Below are positions 9,586-26,202 of a stretch of 64,000 nucleotides of DNA, piece after piece. The position numbers were made by a program, and so were the translations under genes. The DNA comes from Bdellovibrionia bacterium (GTDB taxonomy: Bacteria > Bdellovibrionota > Bdellovibrionia > Bdellovibrionales > JAGQZY01): contig JAUICP010000001.1 in assembly GCA_030427805.1 (NCBI GenBank), positions 930,001 to 994,000 of the forward strand, read 5' to 3'. How positions within the stretch are numbered: position 1 is the first letter of the stretch; every line of letters begins with the position of its first letter. The notes beneath the pieces were generated by a model, which had not been told where the DNA came from, made no database searches, and was given only the letters and a program-made list of their open reading frames with translations.

Positions 9586-9827
9586 TCAGATCCCTTCTTC
9601 CTTCAGTCTCCCTTTAGACCTGTGAAAAGAGGTATCAAGTCCTTACTTAGCCTTCAACAAGAGCGCAATAATTTGAGTTCTTTACACTATTTCACCGAAG
9701 CGACTTGGTCTCCTCCTTGCACAATGAGCTAGGTGTTTGAATTGAAAGAAGTAGTTAAATGAACTCTTTGTTCTAGATTAGCTTCTCTTTGATTTGATTT
9801 AAAATACGCAAGAGATGGAGATTGTTT

Positions 9828-10715
9828 TTGGCTCGATTGGTCGCCCTGTTCAAAATTTTGATAGTCTCGGGATTTCTTTTGTCTCAAGGGGCCTTTGCTG
9901 CCATTTGCGAGGGAAACTTCGATTCGCGAATAGCGGGATACGAGGCCTATCTAGAGGTCAATGAATTCCTACACGGAAGAGTTCTTGAAGGGATTCGCTA
10001 CGCAAAACACCAGACCCTCGATGGCGCGATTTCGAATCCTGGTCTGATGCCCATGACACCAAGAAATGAAGTTGAAGAACAATTCGAAGGAGCAGGCCGA
10101 GTGCTTAGTTTTCGCTCGGGCTTCCGTATTTCTGGCCAACTTCACAAAGTGGTTCTCGATGTCAAAGAGCGCGAGGGCGGATTTGATATTACTCCATACT
10201 TGTTTCATTTTGTCGGTACGACCTATGTTGAAAACAAAGTGCCTGGAACGGGCTTTACCAACGCTCTCAGGTGGGAAATGAGCAAAGGATTTGCGGCCGA
10301 TGGTTTTCAAAACTACCTCAACCCTGTAGGCCCCATTCGCGGATTCACCATGGCTCCCCATAAAATGACCCAAGAGGAATTGGCCGGCAAAGGGATCTCT
10401 GAAGGACAAAGCATAGAACTCGTTTATGAATCGGGTATTATCGTACGGGGCCAAGTTAAAGCCCTTGAAAGTCTGCGGGCAAATTCTCAGGGTGTTGATC
10501 TCATCCGGTTCGTACCTGGTAGCCTGAGTATTACTTTGGGTGAAACTGACTTTATAAATCAATACGGTATTGATCAGGATTCCCTGTTGATTGCCGCAGA
10601 TGTTATTACCCACGCCGAAGATTTTCAGCGGGGTCCTTGGGTGCCCTTTGTACCCGATGGAGTAGAAGTTTTTGACGAGGGAGAGGACGAGACTCTCGAT
10701 ACTCCTGAAAATTAA
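9828..10715 (+). CDS. exported protein, paralogue of the next gene; resembles C-terminal region of long phenylalanine hydroxylases
   Basis: This is a 295-residue protein. I prefer the TTG at 9828 (GGAG at 9817-9820, 7 nt away) over the TTG at 9822. The signal peptide ends in SQGAFA. The mature protein has two similar halves, one around SGFRISGQL (about 105-113) and one around YESGIIVRGQV (about 202-212), separated by NPVGPIRGF. The same pattern occurs in the next gene. From memory, this SG-x-x-V-x-G strand pattern and the PVG segment match the extra C-terminal domain of long bacterial phenylalanine 4-hydroxylases. The catalytic iron site is not present. The C-terminus is acidic. Confidence 0.7.
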   Translation: MARLVALFKILIVSGFLLSQGAFAAICEGNFDSRIAGYEAYLEVNEFLHGRVLEGIRYAKHQTLDGAISNPGLMPMTPRNEVEEQFEGAGRVLSFRSGFRISGQLHKVVLDVKEREGGFDITPYLFHFVGTTYVENKVPGTGFTNALRWEMSKGFAADGFQNYLNPVGPIRGFTMAPHKMTQEELAGKGISEGQSIELVYESGIIVRGQVKALESLRANSQGVDLIRFVPGSLSITLGETDFINQYGIDQDSLLIAADVITHAEDFQRGPWVPFVPDGVEVFDEGEDETLDTPEN

Positions 10716-10725
10716 ATAATTAACG

Positions 10726-11589
10726 ATGATGAATTTTATTAAAAAGAAAGTCCGTGGAATGTTTTTTGTTAGAAATTTTAAGTACCTCTTAGCGATTCTT
10801 TTAGTTGCGCTTATGGCAGGACCTGCCTTGGCGGTGCCATTTAGTCGATCTCCCTTTGCCTGTGAAATCACTATGGATCCCACTTCTGTGGCTCGCCACG
10901 GTGATAATTTCGCTCACTACTTTGTTTCAGAAGCAGCTCCGGGTGTGTCTTCACTCGGTATTCTTCGGGATTCCATTTGGTATAACGAATTTCTTCAAGA
11001 AGTTTATCTTGGAAATTTAGCTCCGACTCCTGAGACGAGGCGGCCGAACCGTTTGCGGGCTCCCAATTTTTTCACCAATGGCATGGGTGACTTCGTGCCT
11101 GGAAATTACGGTCGCTATGTATTTAATTCTGGTATGGCGGTGCAAGGGCAGTTAAGTCACGTGATGGTTCTCGAAAACCAATTGGCATTTGTGAAATTCC
11201 ACGGCCCCACGCAACTCATGGATCGCGTCGGAGATTCATTCGAGGTTTTACCTCGTCAGAGTGAAGGCCAGCACCCCGGTGGATTTAGTTCTCCAGTAGG
11301 CCCACTCATCGGTTTTGAAAAACCTCTCTACGAGTATTCCCTCGAAGAACTCGCTGAGCGCAGGATCGAAGAGGGGCAGCAGGTCAGCCTACGCTACGAG
11401 TCAGGGATTCAAGTCACAGGTACAATTGAAGAAATTCAGACTTTTGCAGGTCGTCCTGTTGTCATCAGGTTTGTAAACAAGTCGGCGCGAATGAAGATCG
11501 GTTCTAAAACCCTTTTTGCTCCCAGTTGGGGAGTGTTTGATCTCCTTTTGGGCCTGGATGGACTGGCCGGTTTGGATCGAAATTACTGA
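10726..11589 (+). CDS. exported protein, tandem paralogue of the preceding gene
   Basis: This is a 287-residue protein with a long N-region (MMNFIKKKVRG) and a signal peptide ending near AGPALA. It starts 10 nt after its paralogue. It shows the two-half pattern more clearly: SGMAVQGQLSHV then SGIQVTGTIEEI, each followed by a strand ending in Val/Ile-x-Phe. FSSPVGPLIGF lies between them and LFAPSWGVFDLLLG near the end. The last motif and the SPVG motif are the features I associate with the C-terminal extension of long-form phenylalanine hydroxylases. No hydroxylase catalytic domain is present in the window. The export signal makes a role in the periplasm or beyond likely. Confidence 0.7.
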   Translation: MMNFIKKKVRGMFFVRNFKYLLAILLVALMAGPALAVPFSRSPFACEITMDPTSVARHGDNFAHYFVSEAAPGVSSLGILRDSIWYNEFLQEVYLGNLAPTPETRRPNRLRAPNFFTNGMGDFVPGNYGRYVFNSGMAVQGQLSHVMVLENQLAFVKFHGPTQLMDRVGDSFEVLPRQSEGQHPGGFSSPVGPLIGFEKPLYEYSLEELAERRIEEGQQVSLRYESGIQVTGTIEEIQTFAGRPVVIRFVNKSARMKIGSKTLFAPSWGVFDLLLGLDGLAGLDRNY

Positions 11590-14248: not shown

Positions 14249-14776
14249 ATGGAAAAGCAATGGTATATCGTAAACTGCCAAACAAATTGTGAAAATACCG
14301 CAAAGGCAGCGATTGAAGAGCGAATTAAATCAAAAGGGATGGAAGATTTCTTTGGTGATATTGTTATCCCTTCGGAAAATGTTGTTGAATTGGTAAAAGG
14401 TCAAAAGACAACACGCTCGCGTAAATTCTTTCCCGGATATATTTTCGTAAATATGATCATGCAGGAAGATACTTGGCATTTGGTGCGAGGCTCTTCTAAA
14501 GTAACGGGTTTTATTGGTGGTCAAAAACCACAACCTGTTCCCGAGCACGAAGTCACTCGAGTTAACCAACAAATGGAAGAGGGTGCTGAGAAGCCAAGAC
14601 CGAAAATCTCTTTTGAGCTTGGTGAAAGTGTTACGGTTATTGATGGACCTTTTTCTAATTTCAATGGAACTATTGAAGAGATCAATGAGGAAAAGGCGAA
14701 AGTAAAAGTGCTTGTAAGTATTTTTGGTCGACCAACTCCTGTAGAGCTTGATTATATTCAGGTGGAAAAGTCATAA
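14249..14776 (+). CDS. nusG: transcription termination/antitermination factor NusG
   Basis: NusG binds RNA polymerase, suppresses pausing and links it to Rho or the ribosome. The 175-residue protein has the NGN domain ([11 protein letters not shown] at the start, [12 protein letters not shown] near 55) and a C-terminal KOW domain ([14 protein letters not shown]). The length is typical. It is followed within 30 nt by a strong terminator, so the usual nusG-rplK link is broken here. Confidence 0.98.
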
Positions 14777-14804
14777 GTATTTCTGCCATTTCAAGATTAA
14801 AAAA

Positions 14805-14830
14805 AACGAGCCGAGAGCTCGTTTTTTTTT
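14805..14830 (+). terminator. strong rho-independent terminator after nusG
   Basis: AACGAGC (14805-14811) pairs with GCTCGTT (14817-14823), and the stem runs into nine or more Ts. An A run precedes the stem, so it could also work in reverse. Confidence 0.9.
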
Positions 14831-15057: not shown

Positions 15058-16932
15058 GTGGTGTTTCCCTTAATGAGGCTGAAAAGGCTGAGTATTTTAA
15101 TCCTGGTGTTTTCACTTTTTATCCCCGTATCCTATGCGGGAGATGATGACATCAACCACCTGGAAGTTTTGTATCCCTTAGTGGATGAAGCCCCTTTAGT
15201 ACGCCACGATCTTTTTATCGATTTCGTGTACACCAATGTTTACACGCAAAACCCCAGGGAAGTTTCTCGCACTACTTTTTATCGTCTTTCGATCGAATTA
15301 TTGAGTAGCCTTTATACTGAGGTTCGCGGATTATCTGTCGATGAGTCGACCGAAGACCTTCAAGAGTACCTATTACAAATATATTCCCAACCATCCATGG
15401 CGGTAGCTCTCGTTGACATACTTGCAGGCCTATTGCAAGAGGTTCACGAAAATAAACCAACAGGTTTAATGGCTAGATTGGCGAGTCGCTCTCAAGGTGA
15501 ATCCGCAATAAAAATCCTTGTGAAAGAAAAATTGAATCAACTCATTTCGAGAGCGCAGTCCTTCGAAGGTCGCCTAAGAGTCAGCCGTCCTCAATCCTAT
15601 AGCTATGAAGAAATTTTTCAAAGCCTTGTGCCGATCTTTTCATCTTCGACTGGTCAAGCTGGGGTATCCGGTCTTGATTTTTACGATGGCTTCGAAGGTG
15701 TCGAGGCCGAACTCACAAGTTTAGAGAATCTTTTATCAGGTGATTTTGATGTCGCTCAGTTGCAGGCCTACCGAGGTTTATCTTTCCGAATTAACGATAT
15801 GGCCCAGGTGATAAGCCAAGGCTTAGATAATCTACAAACAGTTGGCGCACTCTATGAGGTCGAAAGGCGAATACAATCTTTCGATGCCAGTCGTTACGAA
15901 ACATCTCGCAGTTCTGAACACTGTCTTAAGCAGGCAAAAGGAGTCAGGGATTTTTTGAGTGCCTTGCGGTTAGATCGTATTCCGATGGTCCAACAGGTGA
16001 CGGTTTACAGTGAAAAGCTAGAGCAAATTAATGAAAAGTTAAAACTCATTGAGAGGGTTCGCTCGCGAATCGTTGAGGTAGTTACAAATAGGAGCCTTCG
16101 CCCCGGCGAACTTGAAGAGATCAATTCTGTTCTTTACTACTTGATACGAAACTTAACTTCTTTAAAAGAAATATACCAAGACTCGATTCAAAGAATGGAA
16201 GATTTACTGCCAAAGGTTGCGGTCCTCGAGGCGGAGCTGGGAGCATTAGCTACGGAGCTCGAGCATCGGTCTCGAAATTTCGATCCAGTGGCCCATTCTC
16301 CTGAAAGTACCAGGTTCATTCAAAGATTAATTGAGTCTTTGCAAAGAGACGAAACTGAAGAGGTCGAAACCTTAACGGCAGATGAAATCAACCGTAGATG
16401 GCTTCTCGATATTTATTTCGCTCGAAAAAAGGACGCCAGACTCGATAGTCATGGGGCTCTTAGGATAATCGTTCTTAACAACTACAGAAGCGAAGAATTG
16501 CGCAGGGATCTCGTCGGAAAATTGCGCCATGTGATTACAGGAAACTCCTTAATTTATTTTCGATCCTACATTGAACTCTTCCCCGAGGACTACTCTTCTA
16601 TTCTTGATATTATTAATCGGCGGATGCCGACCGAAAGTGATCAAAGGTTTAATATGGAGGGGCAGATTGTCCAGTCGCTCATGCAGTTTGTTGCAGCCCT
16701 TTACAATAAATATAGAACTGTTCCGCAGCACTTCGTTGGACTCCAAAGGGCTCGAGAACGCTTATCCGTAAGCCGCAGATTTAAAAAGTTTCCTGGAACG
16801 GCGGGGAATGCCTCGGGCTTTTATCTCGATGAACTATTGTTAAAACGATTTCAGTCAGAACCTCAGCCAAAGCTGACTTGCGAATATCATATCCTTCTTC
16901 TTTCAGGACAACCTTCCGGAGAAAATCCATGA
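15058..16932 (+). CDS. exported helical protein, partner gene of the giant protein
   Basis: This is a 624-residue protein with a GTG start at 15058; an ATG at 15073 is an alternative. The signal peptide has a basic start (RLKRLS), a hydrophobic core and the likely cleavage site PVSYA/GDDD. The mature chain is almost entirely helical, with several coiled-coil-like stretches (for example residues 310-410), two internal cysteines and no obvious catalytic motif. It is coupled to the giant gene by an ATGA overlap, so the two products are made together and may form a complex. I do not recognise the family. It starts a transcription unit inserted between nusG and rplK. Confidence 0.75.
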   Translation: MVFPLMRLKRLSILILVFSLFIPVSYAGDDDINHLEVLYPLVDEAPLVRHDLFIDFVYTNVYTQNPREVSRTTFYRLSIELLSSLYTEVRGLSVDESTEDLQEYLLQIYSQPSMAVALVDILAGLLQEVHENKPTGLMARLASRSQGESAIKILVKEKLNQLISRAQSFEGRLRVSRPQSYSYEEIFQSLVPIFSSSTGQAGVSGLDFYDGFEGVEAELTSLENLLSGDFDVAQLQAYRGLSFRINDMAQVISQGLDNLQTVGALYEVERRIQSFDASRYETSRSSEHCLKQAKGVRDFLSALRLDRIPMVQQVTVYSEKLEQINEKLKLIERVRSRIVEVVTNRSLRPGELEEINSVLYYLIRNLTSLKEIYQDSIQRMEDLLPKVAVLEAELGALATELEHRSRNFDPVAHSPESTRFIQRLIESLQRDETEEVETLTADEINRRWLLDIYFARKKDARLDSHGALRIIVLNNYRSEELRRDLVGKLRHVITGNSLIYFRSYIELFPEDYSSILDIINRRMPTESDQRFNMEGQIVQSLMQFVAALYNKYRTVPQHFVGLQRARERLSVSRRFKKFPGTAGNASGFYLDELLLKRFQSEPQPKLTCEYHILLLSGQPSGENP

Positions 16933-19900
16933 GATTTACGTTTGTAAAATTATTAATTCTTTCACTCCTTGTTTGCTCAACGGCTTCATCCCAAGATCGA
17001 TCAGATATTGGTAGTCTTGTTGGAAGTTTTGAGAATCTCCTCAGGGAGCAGAATGGCGAGGAAGCTCCCACTGGAACTGATAGTGAAGTCGATGCCCAAG
17101 GTGATGTTGCAGAAGGAGATCCCCTTGAGGTTGAAGAGGGTACCACGGGTGAAGTTGTTTCGAATGCAGAGATGACTCCCGATGAAGCCACCGGAGTATT
17201 ATCGGGAGCCGTCGAAGATTTTCTAGAACCCTTAGCCGATGGAGCCGTCGCAATTAATGCTGTAACGCCGGCCATGACTCGAGAGGCACTCAAAGAGGCA
17301 TCGGGTCTTTCAGTTGAGTCTGTTATAGATTCTCAGGTGGTTATAGATTCGCGAATTATTCCTTTACTTCTAATGTTTCGCTCAACAGAAGCTTTTAAAC
17401 GAAAAACCCATGAAATCTTGCAGAAGGCCTATTCGGCGGGTGATTTACAAAAAATTGTTGTCCGATTTAATGGTTCACCTGTTCCAAAGGTTCAAGGTAA
17501 GCGCATTGATCAAAATGTAGTAAGAAAACAAAAAATCAAAGCTCTCGAAGAGGCAAGGCGTGGAAGTAGAAGCCCTGCTCCAGGGGCCGGTGAATCGGGT
17601 CTTGAGCGAAGCCAAAGGGAGCAAATCAAAGCTCTTAAAGAAGAGTTGAAGGCCTTTGAAATCGAAGGCGGTCACCAACCGGATTACCTTTATCAAGTAG
17701 ACATCTCCGCGGGGATCATGGCCTTTATTGAAAAAGAAGACCAATATGCCGCAGTTCTTTATTTAGCTCTCGCTATGGAGAATCCGGCAACTTTTGGAGC
17801 CTTACGTGATGAGCGCATCAAATCGTTTTTGGATAATCTTCAGTCCTACAAAAGCAAAGGCCCTGAAGAGCAAGAGCAATTGCGAATCTCGATCAGTGTC
17901 ATGGAAAGACTCGTGAATGCCGGCTACCAACCCATGGCTCTGGCCCGTATTGAAACTGATATTTACGATTGGATTCGCGACAACATCGTTCGCAAAAGAG
18001 GCTATGGTGCCGCAAGACGAATTCTTCCTAAGAGTATCGACAGTATTTTGGCGGATCCGACTCGTTCACTTCGTGTTGAAGTGATGAATGCCTTTAACAA
18101 TCAGTACCTCAGAGTCGAGCGCGATATGTCGCAGATTACCAGTCGAGAGTTTGGGCCAGAGATGAAAGCCTTTGTTCGAGCTAACCAGGTCTATGTCAGA
18201 CCGATTTACTCTAAATGGCTGACCTATTCATCTCCGGTGGTACTAACAAGTGGTGTTGGTGGTGCTGGAGCGACAGTATTTTTTGGTGCAGAAACTGTCA
18301 TGGGAGGAATCGTCGCTGCAGTTTCCTCAGCAGCCTCTGGAGTTGGATCGGCTGGCTCAGCCGTTGGTGGTTTTTTAACGACGACTGCTGGGACCCTTGG
18401 TGAACTCGTCGTATCAACTGGAGTTCTAGAACTCGGTGGAACTGCCGTTGCTACTGGTGGCTACGTTTTAGCAGCGACTGCTGGTGCCGGTGTATTGGCC
18501 GTTATTTGGAAAAGTCGTGATGCAATTATTGATAGTTTAACTTCCGTTCGAATGCCGAGGTTGCGCTCACTCCGTTCAGAAAACCGTTCGCGAATTGAAG
18601 GGCCGAGAAGTAGTCCTGGGTCGGGAACGGAAAGTTATACTCCTCGTGAAGAATGGAATCGTCCTACAGAAGAGGGTGATCGATCTCAAAGTATGCCAGC
18701 AGTGATTACCGAAGAAGGACCTGGCTTTGGACAAAGAATGGGTCATGCTCTTGTGGCGACAGGTCGAGCAGGTACGGATATCACCTTTGATATAGCTCGA
18801 AAAATAAGGAGTGGAGCGAATATTACAATCCTTGGTATTGGTGCCCTTGGAGTGGGCGGATTTCAATTAGCTAATCGCGCTCAAAGAGGGGTTCGAGTAG
18901 GACTCTGGAGTTCGGCCGTCTGGGTTAAAGATATTAGTGTAGCTGGCTACAAAGTCGGTGAAGGTCTGGTGATCGGCACGGGGCGAGCCGGACAAAAATT
19001 CGGTATTGCCTTGGCCGATGCCGCCGAAAGGCGAAGAAATCGATTGCGCGATCGGGTCGAACGTTATCGACGTTCTAAGCTTGAAAGAAGATATATGAAA
19101 AACCTCATATCATCAGGTGAGGTCAACCCATTAGAGATCTCAAATCTTCTCTTTACTACCGGCGGACTGTTAACGAGTGACGATCCTGATAGTGCACCGG
19201 TTCTCGCCAATGAAACAGTCAGTGATGGTAATGGAACGGGAACGGCTCTTGTTCCAGTTTCGGAGCAAAATACAGATTTGGCCAGGCTTTCAAACAGTCG
19301 ATTCTCATCTTCAAGTTTATTGAGTTTCTATAATCAACTTCTCGACAAACTTATTGATTCAATTGAGTCCTATGACGACCTTTCTAAAGAAGACCTAGTC
19401 GATATACTGACTCGAGCGAATCTGCACGGTAATTCCGACCACACTCTACTCGATAAAGAAATCTACCAGGAAAAGCTCTTGCGCCTACGTGATGTTGTCG
19501 CGGCTAAGCACCCGGAGTTAGTGAGCGAGGGAACAACTTCGCTTCCGATCCTTAGAGAAGGAAGTAAATTAAAAGAGATTTATGCAGCGGTTGAGTCTGA
19601 AAATATTGAAGCCTACTTAGATCTACGTCCGTATATGATTCATAAATCTATGGGAGCGACCAAGGAGCGATTTGATACGGCCCTTTATGAAAAGATCGTT
19701 CACGAGGCCTTAAAAGCAGACCTTGATGAGGCCTACAGAAGAAGAGTTGTGGAACTCGCTAAAGAGCTCATTAATTCGAGAGTGGGTGGCGGAAGACTGG
19801 CTGGAGTTAATTTTAGAAGACGATTAGCAAAATTTTTAAGTGAAGATGAGATGGTGACTTTCTTACTCAATGATAATCTCTTTGATAGATCAACGCTTTC

Positions 19901-22900
19901 TCACACGGTGAGTTTGCGCAATAACCTGGCAAATACCTTATTGCGACGAAGAGGGTCTTACTCGGCTGTACAAACCTATTTGAATGAGACTATTGCCCCA
20001 AGGGGAGTTCGGGTTTCAGGTCTTCTTACGGACGTAACTCGCGTCAACTCAACATCTCGCTTGCAAACATTGCAAGATCTAGAGACTTTTCTCAATTTGC
20101 GCGCCAACAATAGATATTCAAGTATTCCTCTATCGGTAAGAAAGCAAATTCTCCGAATTGTTATAGAAAATTCAAATGACATATCTGAGGAGCAAATTGC
20201 TCAGGTGAGTACGAGTCTGTCTATCGAGTTAGACAATCGAGACGATAATACAAAGATCGATTTAGAGTATAAGTCTTTGCTGCTCACTTATTACACTACC
20301 TTTAAAGATAGGTTTAACGATTCAGATAAAGCTCTAAGGCCTGAGGCTTCGTCTGTCGGCAGAGTCTCAGGTAATGAACTTGGTTTTTTAATGAATGCGA
20401 TATTTTCGCCAGAGGCTGAAGTGGGTCGAGACATGATCGAGTACCTTGGAACTCTAGGCAATATGAATGCCGAGCCAATTATGATCGAAGCACTCAGTTC
20501 AAGAGGAGATGCCATTTTGGATTGGCTGACGACTCCTGGTCTTGAGATGGCGACTCGTAGGAAATATATGGGGTACTATATTTCTTGGTATGATACAAAA
20601 AAAGAAGGAGCCCTTAATCGAGGACACTTGATCAGTAGAAACGCATTGGCAAGAAGTTATGGCAAACTGAGTTTTCCCCAGCGCTTTAGCTTTTTTGCCA
20701 TCTACAAGTCTATGTTAGCTCAAACTTCGAATGGCAGCGGCTCTCTTACAAATAGGTGGTTTGCTCCCTATAAAAATGAGACCACAATTGTGACTCGAAT
20801 GATCACCTACCTTTTTGCCGAGCAAAGAGACCTTATTCAGGCTATTGAACTCTTTGAGCAAGAGTTTCATCCAAGGTCCGTTTATTTGGATGATTATGCC
20901 AACCCAATTGCAGTTTACCTGAGAAACCATCCCGGGCGATTGGCATCCAAAGAAAATCTAGATGCCTTTTACTCTCTGTTTGATCACGAACGCAGAATCG
21001 ATCATAACCAGGCTGAAATCGCTCTATCTACGGTTCTCTTGGCTATGACCAATCCCAATAATTCTTGGATTCGCGATGAATTCCAAACCCAGGACGAAGA
21101 AAGAATTGGAAGCCTTTTAATGGATATCTCACGGCTTCTAATTGTTGCACGCAGGGAGCCTACGAGTTGGTATATCGATAAACCAGAAGGTCGCATTCAA
21201 ATGAAGGCCCTATACGAAATACTCATTTATGAGGGGAATCGAACGGGTTTTGCTGATTTAGTCGAAAGTAGCACCGATAGAAACTTTGTTATTGTCCGAA
21301 CAGCTGTAAAGATTCAGGAGCTCAAAACCCAATTTGACCCTGTTAAGTTTATCGAAGTTATGCTTCAGCTCAAAGATATGGAAAGAAAATCCCTAATGGC
21401 TGAATTGTTCACACTCTATGGGAGTCCATTTTCGCGACATATTTTTAGCGATGTGGCGACAAGTGAGCAGAGAACGCGATTTTTCGAAATTTTAGATAAA
21501 TTAGTCAATGGAACTGAGTTAACCCACGCGAATGTAGAACAAATCGTCACGAAGTCACTTAATAATGAACAGCGAGCGATTTGGAGTTCACTCAAAGAAA
21601 CCTATGGATTTAAAGAAGTGGAGCGACCATGGTGGGCTCTTTTTGGACTCGAAAGTGAGCTTAATAAGCGTGAACGTGAAATTCGAAGAGCTCTCAACTT
21701 TCAAAACTCTGTGTCTGATGTCGTCGCTTATACAGAAGTCCTCAAGGGGCGCGGAGCTCGACTGGATCAGTTCGCCGAATCATTTCACAACCTGATGATT
21801 GTGCGGCCGGAACTTTTTCGCACCTACGAAGATGTCATGCTCTTTCTTGAGCAAGATAGCTTTTGGCCAGAGATGAGGCTGAGTTCTTGGGACGAGAGAA
21901 AGTATCCCCTCGAAGCACCTCTGGCTCGATTGATTAAAGCAAAACAACAAAACCCTCGGGCTAACCCAGGTTCTTGGAAGTACAAGCCGGCTTTTTCTGA
22001 GCGTGCGCAAAATATGTTGATCCGTCAGCTCGAAGAAAAGGGCATGTATCCCGAAGAATTTGAAGCTAAGAAAAAACTATGGATTGCTTTAACCAATCGT
22101 GGAGTGACCACGGTGAGCGATCGCATTCTTAATGAACTTAAAAATGAAGCCCCCTCAGCGGGACAACGAGATGAATTGCTCGCTTTTGCCGTCGGTGAAG
22201 ATCGAATTTTTGATAAAGCCAGTAAAGAGGCATGGGCCATTGGTCGGGTGGTACAGTCTGCGGCATTCAAGGCGATGATTCCAAATGGAAGTCTGTTTGA
22301 ACGCTTTATGGATGGAGACCGCGGAGTTCTCGATCAGATGGTTTCGCAGTACAATAGTGTGGTCACCAATCTTGATGAACGTATGAAGCACATTCGAGCC
22401 GTCGTAGAAATGCTCCAACAAGAGCTGCCTGAGCGTGGAATTGCCTATGAGGAATTTCTTGAGAAATTTTCAGTGGCCATCAATAGTAACGAAGAAGAAA
22501 GTGCCTATATCAACCAAGAAAAATTCCCCATTGCCGAGCGGTCTCGAACCACAGAAGACTATGTAGAAGATGCTACCGAAGGTGGAAAAGATGCGAGTTC
22601 TACTTCAGACAAAGATATACAAGCCTTTTATAAAATTACTGAATCAATTCGAAATTGGTCCGAAGAAGAGCAATACCAGTTTATTCGCTACATTCGCGGT
22701 GAGCGCGAAGAGCCCACTGAGTTTTTAGCAGAACACTTTCCTAATGTTGGAGCTGAGCGTTTACGCTATATTTATCAGGAACTTCCTCAGCAGTATAAAG
22801 TCGGGATCATGAGTATGTTCATGCGAGTTACATTTATTCGCTACTCAAGTACCGATGTTACTAAAGGTATGCCCAAGCGAATTATCGACGATATCGTAGG

Positions 22901-24563
22901 CACCGGTGATGACCCATCAACCTTAGTGACAAGAGCTCTTTTGATGGCTGGTTTTGTAGCCCTCAAGAACGCCGACATGCAAGACAATGTGGCCTTTATT
23001 TTCGGGCAAATTCTAGCTCTCGAAAAAGGTCGCAAGGGTAGTATCGGTGAGACATTAAGAATTGTTCTCCAACACGGGTTTAAGGCTCTAGGAGATAAGA
23101 TCGCGCAACAGATTGTTGCCATGGGAATTCTTAGCGAAGAAGATACGATTGCCCTGCAAATGTCTCAAGACGAAGTGGGAATTCTCGACCGAGAAGATTC
23201 CTATAAAGAGTTACGACGAATTCTCGTAGAAGAAGGTCCATTCGATGCCCTTCCTTTTGAATTACTCGATACTGTCGGTGGAGCTTCGATGAAGTGGGCC
23301 ACGCGAAGTCTTATGACCTCTGGCGATGAAAAGGTATTGAGTATCCTCAAGGTAAAAAGGCGCCACGCCTTTTACGATACGGCCAATCGTTATCGAGTTC
23401 TCGATTATATGGTGAACTACCTTATCGATAATTATGGAGTTGAATACACCATCCTTCGTCCGATCATCGAAAGTGCCATGCGCGGAGTTGAAAGAGAAGG
23501 AGACTTTAACCTCGAAGCGCAAAACTCCCGTCGAGCCAAAGAGTTTATTTATATTAATCTCGATGATCCTCGATCCGTTGTTTATGTGCCGGACGAGCAG
23601 GTTCTTCCGGGTAGTGACGATCAGATTATGGTTTCTCAATTTGCCGAGGGAACTTCTTTTAAGAAAGTGCCTTCCAGTTTGAAACCTGTTGTGGCAAGAA
23701 AACTTCTCGAGATGGAAGCTTCGATTCTATTTGCCGATGCCGATGAGATTACTTTCGATCCCGATCGCCACGGCGGTAACTACCGCATTTGGATTAAAGA
23801 GGGTTCCAACGAGATTCTTTTAGAGCCCATTGAATACGGTATTATCGATCACGGTCAGCATATTACGATGACTCGCGAGCAAAGGCAGAAGGTCTTTGAC
23901 CTAATGGCATTGTCTGGAATCTATTATGCTTCGGGCCCCAACGCCTGGTGGGACGCTAAAGTTGCAGAAATTTTCAATATGGATGCAGTGACGAAGAAGC
24001 GCTTTGAAAAGCTCATCAGAAAATATCTAGCCGGTAAAAAGCTTCCGAAGGAACTCGCTTACCATCAGTTGATTTCTGCGGTCTACATGTCTGGTTATGA
24101 CCCGAAAGAAGTGAAAGCCAATGACGGTACGGATGGCCTGCAGTCGAGCATTGAATTTAGCGATATTTACCTGGATCTACCACGAGCCGTAATCCAGATG
24201 AAGCAGTACGAAGCTTTTGCACCTGCCGGGGTCGCAAAGCCAAGCGATTTACTTCTCGCAGCGGCCCAGCAGAGTGGTGCTCGCTATCTTGACGAATATA
24301 TAGAGCACCATAGAACACAAGTTGGCCTCTATAATATGGCCGGTCGAGCACGCAGCCTTTTCTCAAGTGAAAACTTTGTTCCCTTGCGCGAAGGAATGGA
24401 TCTCAATGAGTTACGGGACCTTTCCTACGAAATGAACAATTCTGTGTTTTCGAGTGATGCTTCCGAGGCAGCCAATCTGCAACCCGCGACGGTTCGCACC
24501 AGTTGTGAGGACCTCTTCTTTGATTGGAGACCAGCGATTCAAACGGAAGCTTCAGCAAACTAG
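16929..24563 (+). CDS. giant exported protein (2544 aa) with C-terminal ABC1/UbiB-like kinase fold
   Basis: The start is ATG 16929, overlapping the stop of the previous gene, and it opens a clean signal peptide ending near STASS. Layout by residue: an acidic linker 30-110; a helical/coiled-coil region 120-430; a Gly/Ala/Ser/Val-rich hydrophobic block 432-525; a second hydrophobic patch near 625-680 followed by a very basic stretch near 700; a long helical region 720-2040 without a recognised family; and an ABC1/UbiB-like module about 2040-2320. The module keeps a K-I-A-Q motif (K2057) for KxGQ, a GGAS loop, Lys2141 in LKVKR, E2196 in DFNLEAQN, the DRHGGN loop (D2279, N2284) for DPHPGN, and D2307 in IDHG for DFG. 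UbiB-family proteins are atypical kinases or ATPases. A signal peptide on one is unexpected. The substrate and the side of the membrane are unknown. Confidence 0.8.
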   Translation: MRFTFVKLLILSLLVCSTASSQDRSDIGSLVGSFENLLREQNGEEAPTGTDSEVDAQGDVAEGDPLEVEEGTTGEVVSNAEMTPDEATGVLSGAVEDFLEPLADGAVAINAVTPAMTREALKEASGLSVESVIDSQVVIDSRIIPLLLMFRSTEAFKRKTHEILQKAYSAGDLQKIVVRFNGSPVPKVQGKRIDQNVVRKQKIKALEEARRGSRSPAPGAGESGLERSQREQIKALKEELKAFEIEGGHQPDYLYQVDISAGIMAFIEKEDQYAAVLYLALAMENPATFGALRDERIKSFLDNLQSYKSKGPEEQEQLRISISVMERLVNAGYQPMALARIETDIYDWIRDNIVRKRGYGAARRILPKSIDSILADPTRSLRVEVMNAFNNQYLRVERDMSQITSREFGPEMKAFVRANQVYVRPIYSKWLTYSSPVVLTSGVGGAGATVFFGAETVMGGIVAAVSSAASGVGSAGSAVGGFLTTTAGTLGELVVSTGVLELGGTAVATGGYVLAATAGAGVLAVIWKSRDAIIDSLTSVRMPRLRSLRSENRSRIEGPRSSPGSGTESYTPREEWNRPTEEGDRSQSMPAVITEEGPGFGQRMGHALVATGRAGTDITFDIARKIRSGANITILGIGALGVGGFQLANRAQRGVRVGLWSSAVWVKDISVAGYKVGEGLVIGTGRAGQKFGIALADAAERRRNRLRDRVERYRRSKLERRYMKNLISSGEVNPLEISNLLFTTGGLLTSDDPDSAPVLANETVSDGNGTGTALVPVSEQNTDLARLSNSRFSSSSLLSFYNQLLDKLIDSIESYDDLSKEDLVDILTRANLHGNSDHTLLDKEIYQEKLLRLRDVVAAKHPELVSEGTTSLPILREGSKLKEIYAAVESENIEAYLDLRPYMIHKSMGATKERFDTALYEKIVHEALKADLDEAYRRRVVELAKELINSRVGGGRLAGVNFRRRLAKFLSEDEMVTFLLNDNLFDRSTLSHTVSLRNNLANTLLRRRGSYSAVQTYLNETIAPRGVRVSGLLTDVTRVNSTSRLQTLQDLETFLNLRANNRYSSIPLSVRKQILRIVIENSNDISEEQIAQVSTSLSIELDNRDDNTKIDLEYKSLLLTYYTTFKDRFNDSDKALRPEASSVGRVSGNELGFLMNAIFSPEAEVGRDMIEYLGTLGNMNAEPIMIEALSSRGDAILDWLTTPGLEMATRRKYMGYYISWYDTKKEGALNRGHLISRNALARSYGKLSFPQRFSFFAIYKSMLAQTSNGSGSLTNRWFAPYKNETTIVTRMITYLFAEQRDLIQAIELFEQEFHPRSVYLDDYANPIAVYLRNHPGRLASKENLDAFYSLFDHERRIDHNQAEIALSTVLLAMTNPNNSWIRDEFQTQDEERIGSLLMDISRLLIVARREPTSWYIDKPEGRIQMKALYEILIYEGNRTGFADLVESSTDRNFVIVRTAVKIQELKTQFDPVKFIEVMLQLKDMERKSLMAELFTLYGSPFSRHIFSDVATSEQRTRFFEILDKLVNGTELTHANVEQIVTKSLNNEQRAIWSSLKETYGFKEVERPWWALFGLESELNKREREIRRALNFQNSVSDVVAYTEVLKGRGARLDQFAESFHNLMIVRPELFRTYEDVMLFLEQDSFWPEMRLSSWDERKYPLEAPLARLIKAKQQNPRANPGSWKYKPAFSERAQNMLIRQLEEKGMYPEEFEAKKKLWIALTNRGVTTVSDRILNELKNEAPSAGQRDELLAFAVGEDRIFDKASKEAWAIGRVVQSAAFKAMIPNGSLFERFMDGDRGVLDQMVSQYNSVVTNLDERMKHIRAVVEMLQQELPERGIAYEEFLEKFSVAINSNEEESAYINQEKFPIAERSRTTEDYVEDATEGGKDASSTSDKDIQAFYKITESIRNWSEEEQYQFIRYIRGEREEPTEFLAEHFPNVGAERLRYIYQELPQQYKVGIMSMFMRVTFIRYSSTDVTKGMPKRIIDDIVGTGDDPSTLVTRALLMAGFVALKNADMQDNVAFIFGQILALEKGRKGSIGETLRIVLQHGFKALGDKIAQQIVAMGILSEEDTIALQMSQDEVGILDREDSYKELRRILVEEGPFDALPFELLDTVGGASMKWATRSLMTSGDEKVLSILKVKRRHAFYDTANRYRVLDYMVNYLIDNYGVEYTILRPIIESAMRGVEREGDFNLEAQNSRRAKEFIYINLDDPRSVVYVPDEQVLPGSDDQIMVSQFAEGTSFKKVPSSLKPVVARKLLEMEASILFADADEITFDPDRHGGNYRIWIKEGSNEILLEPIEYGIIDHGQHITMTREQRQKVFDLMALSGIYYASGPNAWWDAKVAEIFNMDAVTKKRFEKLIRKYLAGKKLPKELAYHQLISAVYMSGYDPKEVKANDGTDGLQSSIEFSDIYLDLPRAVIQMKQYEAFAPAGVAKPSDLLLAAAQQSGARYLDEYIEHHRTQVGLYNMAGRARSLFSSENFVPLREGMDLNELRDLSYEMNNSVFSSDASEAANLQPATVRTSCEDLFFDWRPAIQTEASAN

Positions 24564-24764: not shown

Positions 24765-25517
24765 GTGAAAAAGTTTTTGATGTTTTTATTCGTCCTTAGT
24801 TTAAGTCCGTTGGCCCAAGCCACAGAAACCCATGACTTTGATTTTGACTCGTGTCCGTCCATTTACTGGAAGTCCAAAGCATTTAGTTGTGCAACTCTTG
24901 AGATTGTAATTCCCGAGAATTTAAGCCCGGACCTTTCACAGAAGAACATTAAAACAACGGTGAGTGATGGTTACGCTCTATTTATTACTGATGCACTTCC
25001 CCATGCGGATACAGTTTTTAGAACCGTTAGAATTGTCGATATCTATAATGGTCTCATTTTTAATTTCTCCTCTGTTTTTGAAACTGATGAGTACAAAAAT
25101 AAAACCGCCAATCTCTACCCGAGACGGGGTGGTGATTGGGGAATCAGCGTCTTTCGCCTGAACGCCGATATCAAAAACCAGGCTGACTATGAGAGTTGCC
25201 TTTCCTCTCTGGGTAAAGATGGGTGTTCCCAACGTTGGGCTGAGGTGGAGCCATTTCTCGATTATATGACTTTTCCACTCTCTCCAGATGATTATCAACT
25301 TTGTCATATGTTTCCGGAGCAGTCTGTGAACCATCGTGGCAACCCTCTTGTGATTTACGAGGAGCTCTCTCGCCAAGTCACTGAAATCTATGGGAATGTG
25401 AAAGATATTAAGATGGGTTCACCCTTGAATTCAGAAGAATTCGATGTGGACTTGGGAGACCTCATTAAGTCGTTTATCCCCGACTCTAAGCACGTATTTC
25501 GCTGCGGGCAGAATTAA
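24765..25517 (+). CDS. secreted Cys-containing protein of unknown function
   Basis: This is a 250-residue protein with a GTG start and AGGGGG 4 nt upstream. The signal peptide is MKKFLMFLFVLSLSPLAQA. The mature part has six cysteines (in DSCPS, FSCATLE, SCLSSLGKDGC, LCHMF and RCGQN), which suggests disulfides and a periplasmic or extracellular location. It has a mixed alpha/beta appearance and no recognised domain. It lies between the giant-protein operon and rplK and is followed by a strong hairpin terminator, so it is probably its own transcription unit. Confidence 0.75.
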   Translation: MKKFLMFLFVLSLSPLAQATETHDFDFDSCPSIYWKSKAFSCATLEIVIPENLSPDLSQKNIKTTVSDGYALFITDALPHADTVFRTVRIVDIYNGLIFNFSSVFETDEYKNKTANLYPRRGGDWGISVFRLNADIKNQADYESCLSSLGKDGCSQRWAEVEPFLDYMTFPLSPDDYQLCHMFPEQSVNHRGNPLVIYEELSRQVTEIYGNVKDIKMGSPLNSEEFDVDLGDLIKSFIPDSKHVFRCGQN

Positions 25518-25612
25518 TAGGAATAGTGGGGCTTTTTCCAGTTCAAAAGGCCCTTGAAAACCCATGGTTTGGTGTAAAATATTCAAACTATTGAGTCATT
25601 GAAGAATTGAGT

Positions 25613-25660
25613 AAAGGCTGCAAAGGCACTCCAGGAGACCTCTTCGCAGCCTTTTTCTTT
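25613..25660 (+). terminator. hairpin terminator upstream of rplK
   Basis: AAAGGCTGC (25613-25621) pairs perfectly with GCAGCCTTT (25646-25654) and is followed by TTCTTTT. The 24-nt loop holds a small internal CTCC/GGAG pairing. It most likely ends the upstream gene and insulates rplK. It would be an attenuator only if a promoter lies before it. Confidence 0.75.
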
Positions 25661-25695: not shown

Positions 25696-25723
25696 TTGCA
25701 AATGCCAGGGCGATCGGTTAAAA
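25696..25723 (+). promoter_or_regulatory. possible rplK operon promoter
   Basis: TTGCAA (25696-25701) and TTAAAA (25718-25723) have a 16-bp spacer. They lie 53 bp before the rplK ATG and after the hairpin terminator. The match is moderate and judged by eye. Confidence 0.4.
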
Positions 25724-25776
25724 ACGCGAGTTCTGTAAATTATTAACAATCTGTGTTGTCACAGGAGTGGGAAATT

Positions 25777-26202
25777 ATGGCAAAAAAAGTAACTGGAATG
25801 ATCAAGTTACAGATACCGGCAGGGAAGGCTAATCCAGCACCTCCCGTTGGACCGGCGCTCGGACAGCATGGGGTCAACATTATGGAGTTTTGTAAGCAGT
25901 TTAATGCTAAAACTCAAAAAGCTGGTGATACCGTAATACCAGTGATCATTACTGTTTATCAGGATCGCTCTTTTACGTTTATCACGAAGACCCCTCCGAC
26001 GTCTGTTCTCATCAAACAATCTCTTAAACTCAAATCAGGATCTAAGATGCCTCAGAAAGATAAGGTAGCGAAGATCAAGATGGATGAGATCAAGAAGATT
26101 GCTGAAACTAAACTACCGGATCTGAACTGTTTAGGTGTTGAATCAGCAATGAACCAAGTCATCGGTACATGCAAAAGCATGGGCATCGATGTGGTCGAGT
26201 AG
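25777..26202 (+). CDS. rplK: 50S ribosomal protein L11
   Basis: L11 forms the GTPase-associated stalk base with 23S rRNA. The 141-residue product starting at ATG 25777 ([12 protein letters not shown]) matches the family length; the upstream GTG-type extension is not needed. The Pro-rich motif [19 protein letters not shown] is diagnostic. AGGAG at 25763-25767 overlaps a small hairpin (CTGTG 25751-25755 with CACAG 25760-25764), which could modulate initiation. rplA follows after 9 nt. Confidence 0.98.

Follow-up and report, generated by a model that had tools for sequence, protein, structure and literature searches.

Genes between nusG and rplK

The window, i.e., the whole stretch of 64,000 nucleotides that was analyzed, carries in order a tRNA cluster, tuf, tRNA-Trp, secE, nusG, three genes that we call A, B and C, rplK, and ribosomal and RNA polymerase genes; gene names were assigned by recognizing the sequences. 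The gap between nusG and rplK is 11,003 bp and contains A, B and C (Table 1). An earlier note on this DNA had described the insert as two genes. The open reading frames of A and B indeed have the coordinates, the lengths (624 and 2544 aa) and the ATGA overlap between stop and start (positions 16929-16932) that it gave, but a third exported-looking frame, C, also precedes rplK. The same note called the terminator of nusG strong, which is borne out by the fold of its hairpin, whose borders are approximate (Table 1).

Table 1. Features of the nusG-rplK interval and of gene B in the window.
Feature	Coordinates	Strand	Basis or remarks
nusG, left border	14249..14776	+	ORF list and sequence match
Intrinsic terminator of nusG	14799..14829	+	RNA fold -14.1 kcal/mol, z -3.5
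Gene A, predicted exported partner of 624 aa	15058..16932	+	GTG start
Gene B, 2544-aa predicted exported pseudo-M48 / ABC1(UbiB)-fold protein	16929..24563	+	
B, signal-peptide-like N-terminus	16929..16991	+	hydropathy
B, predicted pseudo-M48 (BepA-fold) domain, about residues 146-428	17364..18212	+	alignment and fold
B, hydrophobic Gly/Ala-rich stretch, residues 447-526	18267..18506	+	hydropathy
B, lineage-specific middle, about residues 601-1580	18729..21668	+	no family match
B, conserved helical region before kinase	21669..23033	+	motifs W..P..SE, RGVT..TD
B, predicted ABC1/UbiB-type atypical kinase domain	23034..24248	+	KIAQ, GGAS loop, LKV lysine, EGD, DRHGGN, IDHG
B, C-terminal tail	24249..24563	+	low confidence in model; C2526, motif C-x3-hydrophobic
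Gene C, 250-aa exported-looking protein	24765..25517	+	92% in congener
Terminator after gene C	25612..25660	+	RNA fold -23.7 kcal/mol, z -3.5
Promoter-like element upstream of rplK	25696..25724	+	TTGCAA-N17-TAAAAA, read by eye
rplK, right border	25777..26202	+	ORF list and sequence match

The frames of A and B are not chance frames, as both are kept under purifying selection in a congener, where A is 87%, B 93% and C 92% identical. In the draft contig of this congener, the frame of B breaks near codon 49 (L012 near 5582), with the first 49 codons in another frame, which is either a sequencing error or real. Elsewhere in the window (9822-11589), two tandem exported-looking proteins of 297 and 287 aa, without Pfam matches, form a related pair, with 34% identity over 155 aa.

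The nusG-rplK gap in related genomes

The spacing of nusG and rplK was compared in 59 genomes of the order. Matches to nusG were found in 54 genomes, matches to rplK in 54, and both on one contig in 52; left out were 5 genomes without a match to either gene and 2 with the genes on different contigs. The gap between the two matches is 31-282 bp in 47 of these 52 genomes, so the earlier note was right to regard the spacing in the window as unusual. In the other 5 genomes, which are every sampled member of the window's family, it is 1,988-11,015 bp, with values of either 2.0-2.5 kb or 11 kb. Genes A, B and C are common to both sampled members of the window's genus, while the cargo in the family's other genera is unrelated to them: a glycosyltransferase and an FkbM-type methyltransferase in G002, a GNAT acetyltransferase and an exported-looking 373-aa protein in G003, and a sugar epimerase and a 267-aa protein without Pfam match in G004. 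Cargo differs even inside one genus, as between G002 and G004 (loci L081, L082 and L083 were examined). On this comparison, the enlarged gap is not specific to the A-B pair. The position between nusG and rplK would then be incidental, in a gap that takes different cargo in this bacterial family.

The presence of different cargo at the same place in the family's other genera is also what might be expected of a recent mobile element with cargo genes, an origin that the earlier note had itself set against its view of the insertion. However, no transposase or integrase was recognized among the ORFs of the insert, no flanking repeats were found when these were looked for around it, and its G+C content is the same as that of its surroundings. 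Moreover, dN/dS between the two species is low, and the 120 bp upstream of rplK are identical in the congener. We therefore reject this origin as very improbable.

By eye, a TTGCnn-N17-AT-rich element lies upstream of rplK in 5 of 5 family members, including TTGCnn-N17-TATAT equivalents in three members that belong to other genera. Because the insert is situated between the nusG terminator and this likely promoter, no obvious operon is interrupted by it, and this may be the reason that it is tolerated. The comparison of gaps shows that a gene order of such high conservation has turned into a cargo site in one bacterial family; a literature search on insertions between nusG and rplK found no description of such a case.

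Predicted domains of gene B

The earlier note had not recognized the domains of the proteins. A Pfam search of B gave no M48 match. The predicted model of its N-terminal part, built like our other models from window and related-locus sequences, matches the fold of BepA (Z 13.0, rmsd 3.3, 171 aligned), followed by an M48 peptidase (Z 12.1) and then by matches from Z 7.1; the confidence of this model is low (mean pLDDT 52, with core blocks at about 55-87). Close homologues of B contain an intact M48 domain (PF01435, E 1.4e-15). In other families of the order, three loci (L013, L014 and L015) encode proteins of 1,581-1,666 aa, each with ABC1 and, in L013 and L015, with a clear M48 domain as well. 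When B is aligned to its relatives, the position of HExxH reads LALAM. The active-site plug motif of M48 proteins, HPx4R (PMC7950410), reads DPTRSLR, in which the proline and arginine are kept and the histidine is lost. In relatives of B, HExxH is still present and so, by eye, is an HPx4R plug. On the modeled fold and these alignments, the N-terminus of B is predicted to be a domain derived from M48 in which the zinc site has been lost. It shares the fold of BepA and other M48 metallopeptidases, but B differs from these in lacking the histidines of both motifs and in ending in a kinase fold.

The sole Pfam match in B is ABC1 (PF03109, E 2.6e-6), whose 27.2 bits exceed the curated cut-off of 22.9. 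An AlphaFold model of the C-terminal part has a COQ8A-like fold (Z 21.8, rmsd 5.9, 343 aligned): the top matches are four of COQ8A (Z 19.9-21.8), then seven of mycobacterial Rv3197/MSMEG_1954, which we take to be ABC1 proteins, and next RIO kinases at Z 12.8. Foldseek on this model agrees (COQ8A, E 2.8e-7). Searching PDB sequences by phmmer with the C-terminal part produced no informative match. By the motif definitions given in PMC4718504, B contains the GGAS loop, the beta-3 lysine (LKV), the ExD motif (EGD) and the aspartate of DRHGGN, and hence retains the site lysine and both catalytic-site aspartates. The KxGQ motif, kept in G104, G049, G032 and others, reads KIAQ, and the DFG motif reads IDHG, compared with IDFG in most close relatives; kinase motifs are eroded in several relatives too. 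As KxGQ is absent from B, we do not classify it as a canonical UbiB, while its C-terminus is, on these models, an atypical kinase fold of the COQ8A/UbiB type. The helical region that precedes the kinase has recurrent conserved motifs and was barely covered by the fold search.

Selection was estimated as dN/dS between the window and its congener, i.e., from one genome pair. Values are 0.012 for the pre-kinase region, 0.015 for the kinase and 0.019 for the tail, so that these regions are under constraint similar to that on nusG (0.015) and tuf (0.016). They are higher in the pseudo-M48 domain (0.076), the hydrophobic stretch (0.238) and the middle (0.125), and A has 0.111. The kinase half is thus the constrained part of B.

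The loss of HExxH and HPx4R, together with the changes of DFG to DHG and of KxGQ to KIAQ, would agree with B being a non-catalytic scaffold, made of a pseudo-protease and a pseudokinase, with A as a structural partner, and some relatives have lost more motifs. We consider such a scaffold unlikely, given that B still has the lysine and the two aspartates of the catalytic site and that dN/dS of the kinase is as low as that of tuf, although a scaffold could also be conserved.

Relatives of B, and their association with A

When 140 genomes of the order were searched with a profile of B, 14 gave a match, and in two of these the frames are of ordinary size. With a broader profile, matches were obtained in 74 of 368 genomes in the phylum, a number that includes ordinary UbiB proteins: two candidates were scored per genome, and many of the 74 are ordinary UbiB frames of 450-600 aa. 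At E <= 0.01, PF03109 was found in 15 and PF01435 in 11 of the first 21 B proteins collected, and in 10 and 5, respectively, of 14 further ones; B proteins without a Pfam match were found by profile only. One weak match, in G030, was rejected as a B relative, as it is a histidine-kinase-like ORF.

Counts below refer to 33 fetched B proteins, mostly long frames, that were not chosen by their cysteines. These exclude the near-identical congener (which has the cysteine discussed below), the ordinary-size proteins of G009 and G120, hits not fetched in full, and proteins cut at the 3' end (G277 first copy, G274 and G058 second copy); the 5' end is truncated or uncertain in three of the 33. HExxH occurs within the first 420 residues in 20 of them. 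Apart from the B proteins linked to A, eight lack HExxH but have an export signal (G043, G075, two of G199, the second of G000, one of G160, one of G267, and G143).

M48-ABC1 fusions occur across Bdellovibrionota, and no paper describing such a fusion was found in our literature search. A pattern scan of genome contigs recovered 5 relatives among 86 pattern matches, with titles naming Bdellovibrionota, Bdellovibrionia, Bdellovibrionales or Oligoflexales; as the pattern was narrow, this count does not imply absence elsewhere. The genome G199 encodes two exported giants of the ABC1 type, with 2,682 and 3,350 aa, that lack HExxH (L086:3128-11173 and L087:2678-12727), and in G316 (L121, L122) two M48-ABC1-type giants adjoin in opposite directions.

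The protein encoded by gene A has a hydrophobic run at its N-terminus, and a cysteine lies 16 residues before its C-terminal end. Of the 140 genomes of the order, 3 match a profile of A, the only relatives being in G001 and G104, and in each genome A lies directly upstream of a long B without HExxH. The pair in G104, which belongs to another family, has its two genes 13 bp apart, near unrelated genes and at an unrelated chromosomal place; its A has a significant local match to A of the window (E 6e-8, pairwise). Since A is found only with B, and once at another locus, the A-B pair appears to act as a unit. This evidence is suggestive rather than statistical, as there are two independent loci only.

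The earlier note had proposed from the ATGA overlap that A and B act as one complex, and had considered that relatives with the genes apart would refute this idea. The second locus favors a unit, and a complex is plausible. However, B occurs without A in most genomes that have B-type proteins, as the profile counts show, which is part of what the note would have taken as a refutation, while A was never found apart from B. The B proteins of G043 and G075 lack HExxH, have an export signal, and have no A in an order-wide search, which shows that the motif can be lost where A is absent. Two other assignments for A were rejected: anti-phage defence, for which A had weak matches only (DruC, E 0.0065; Cas1b, E 0.0079) and B and C none, and coiled-coil NCBIfam families, whose matches were far below cut-off.

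Export and the C-terminal cysteine

By a simple hydropathy rule, 27 of the 33 B proteins have an N-terminal hydrophobic run, and no later hydrophobic segment is predicted in 24 of these 27. Given one N-terminal export signal and no later segment, the kinase domain of these 24 relatives is probably outside the cytoplasm. In B of the window there are one or two weak later segments (residues 447-526), which might form a membrane hairpin. The topology of this B can thus be predicted less securely than in its relatives, and the case rests partly on them.

The COQ8A fold by itself would also suit an ordinary quinone-biosynthesis UbiB that has an unusual N-terminus and whose kinase faces the cytoplasm. 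Against this stand the predicted export of the 24 relatives, the near absence of cysteine from B, and the presence in this genome of two separate ordinary ABC1 genes, with products of 553 and 457 aa; we regard this explanation as very unlikely. Besides B and these two, the genome has seven further ABC1 matches, six of which are, by eye, ordinary kinase-like frames (L047, L048, L049, L051, L114 and L115). The seventh (L046/L113) is a second exported ABC1 giant on contig C3 (L113:4675-8451, 1,258 aa), which lacks HExxH and whose single cysteine lies 6 residues before the C-terminus.

The tail of B is probably flexible, as judged from its low model confidence, and contains the one cysteine that follows the signal region, residue 2526. 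A cysteine occurs 2-30 residues from the C-terminus in 32 of the 33 B proteins, and in 12 of the 33 no other cysteine follows residue 45. The sole miss, in G171, has no export signal either. Over the other 32, the sum of log10 P for such placement by chance is -43, a figure that ignores relatedness and so is not a probability. Position +4 from the tail cysteine is a large hydrophobic residue in 24 of 31 cases (background 0.34). The mature form of A in G104 contains one cysteine, located 7 residues before the C-terminus, and the two ordinary ABC1 proteins of the window's own genome have no cysteine at their ends.

It is important to consider that exported proteins might carry a C-terminal cysteine signal in general. 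Among ORFs in 464 kb of the same genome, sorted by a simple hydropathy rule, a cysteine lies in the last 20 residues of 28 of 122 exported, 35 of 227 cytosolic and 2 of 61 membrane proteins. This is at most a mild trend, and we rejected a general signal. A literature search on a C-terminal cysteine motif, made only in combination with Bdellovibrio, found none. The near-invariant lone cysteine at the end of cysteine-poor giants suggests an unrecognized modification or linkage of the tail.

Possible function of B

Our best reading, which we favor only tentatively, is that B is an exported UbiB-type protein with a pseudo-protease module and a tail linked by its one cysteine, and that it probably acts on lipids or proteins of the envelope. 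A and B would be exported by Sec, and B would stay outside the cytoplasm. The BepA-like domain may bind clients without cutting them. A bound nucleotide or nucleotide-like ligand might then change the conformation of the UbiB-type domain, which may handle membrane lipids, such as quinones or other prenyl lipids, or envelope client proteins; the tie to quinones is by analogy only. Through its tail cysteine, B could form a covalent bond with A, with a lipid or with a second copy of B. The altered KxGQ and DFG motifs, the less certain topology of B in the window and the low confidence of the N-terminal model speak against this best reading, but the main difficulty for it is that no ATP supply is known in the periplasm.

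This difficulty would be avoided if B, which is probably exported, were secreted outside the cell, e.g., into prey or host material, and its UbiB-type domain modified targets there: a kinase fold outside the cytoplasm is otherwise without ATP, and the target site would have it. The phylum contains predators, and the sporadic distribution of B in the order would be compatible with an effector. Nevertheless, no secretion-system gene was found beside B among the ORFs listed for the window, and the active site of UbiB is normally occluded to protein substrates (PMC4718504). Secretion of this kind is in our opinion improbable, though worth keeping in mind.

Returning to an envelope function, the periplasm has its topological counterpart in the mitochondrial intermembrane space, which is better supplied with ATP. 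Among the closest functional parallels are Cqd1 and Cqd2, two UbiB proteins of yeast that face this space and control CoQ distribution; they show that UbiB proteins can work on the membrane side facing away from the matrix (PMC8346625). B shares with UbiB and COQ8 (ADCK3) the kinase fold with its N-terminal extension, the Ala/Gly-rich loop, ExD and catalytic-site residues. It differs in being an exported giant with an M48-type fusion, KIAQ and DHG motifs, and a lone C-terminal cysteine, and none of these differing features is described for UbiB or COQ8 in the parts of the literature consulted. As for the M48-derived domain, BepA pairs an M48 domain with a TPR domain and serves both as a protease and as a chaperone (PMC7950410), so it is reasonable to expect that a dead M48 domain may act in binding.

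More speculatively than for B itself, we propose that Bdellovibrionota possess extracytoplasmic machines of the UbiB/COQ8 type, usually fused to M48, with a C-terminal C-x3-hydrophobic tail that is covalently modified or disulphide-linked, and that in one branch the protease is dead, B is larger and A has been added as a dedicated exported partner. UbiB/COQ8 proteins are ancient, mutations in human COQ8A cause disease, and their targets are unsettled; an exported, protease-fused bacterial UbiB would narrow the question of the target through its fusion partner, its compartment and the chemistry of its tail.

Plastoglobules, the other of the closest functional parallels, have the M48 peptidase PGM48 and ABC1Ks among their core proteins (PMC12587418), so that M48 peptidases and ABC1 kinases share one membrane-lipid compartment. 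This likeness to B is one of domain names, and PGM48 and the ABC1Ks are separate, unfused chloroplast proteins, unlike B. Their co-residence nonetheless hints that M48 peptidases and ABC1 kinases can form one functional module, for which the M48-ABC1 fusion, if our proposal is true, would be direct genetic evidence.
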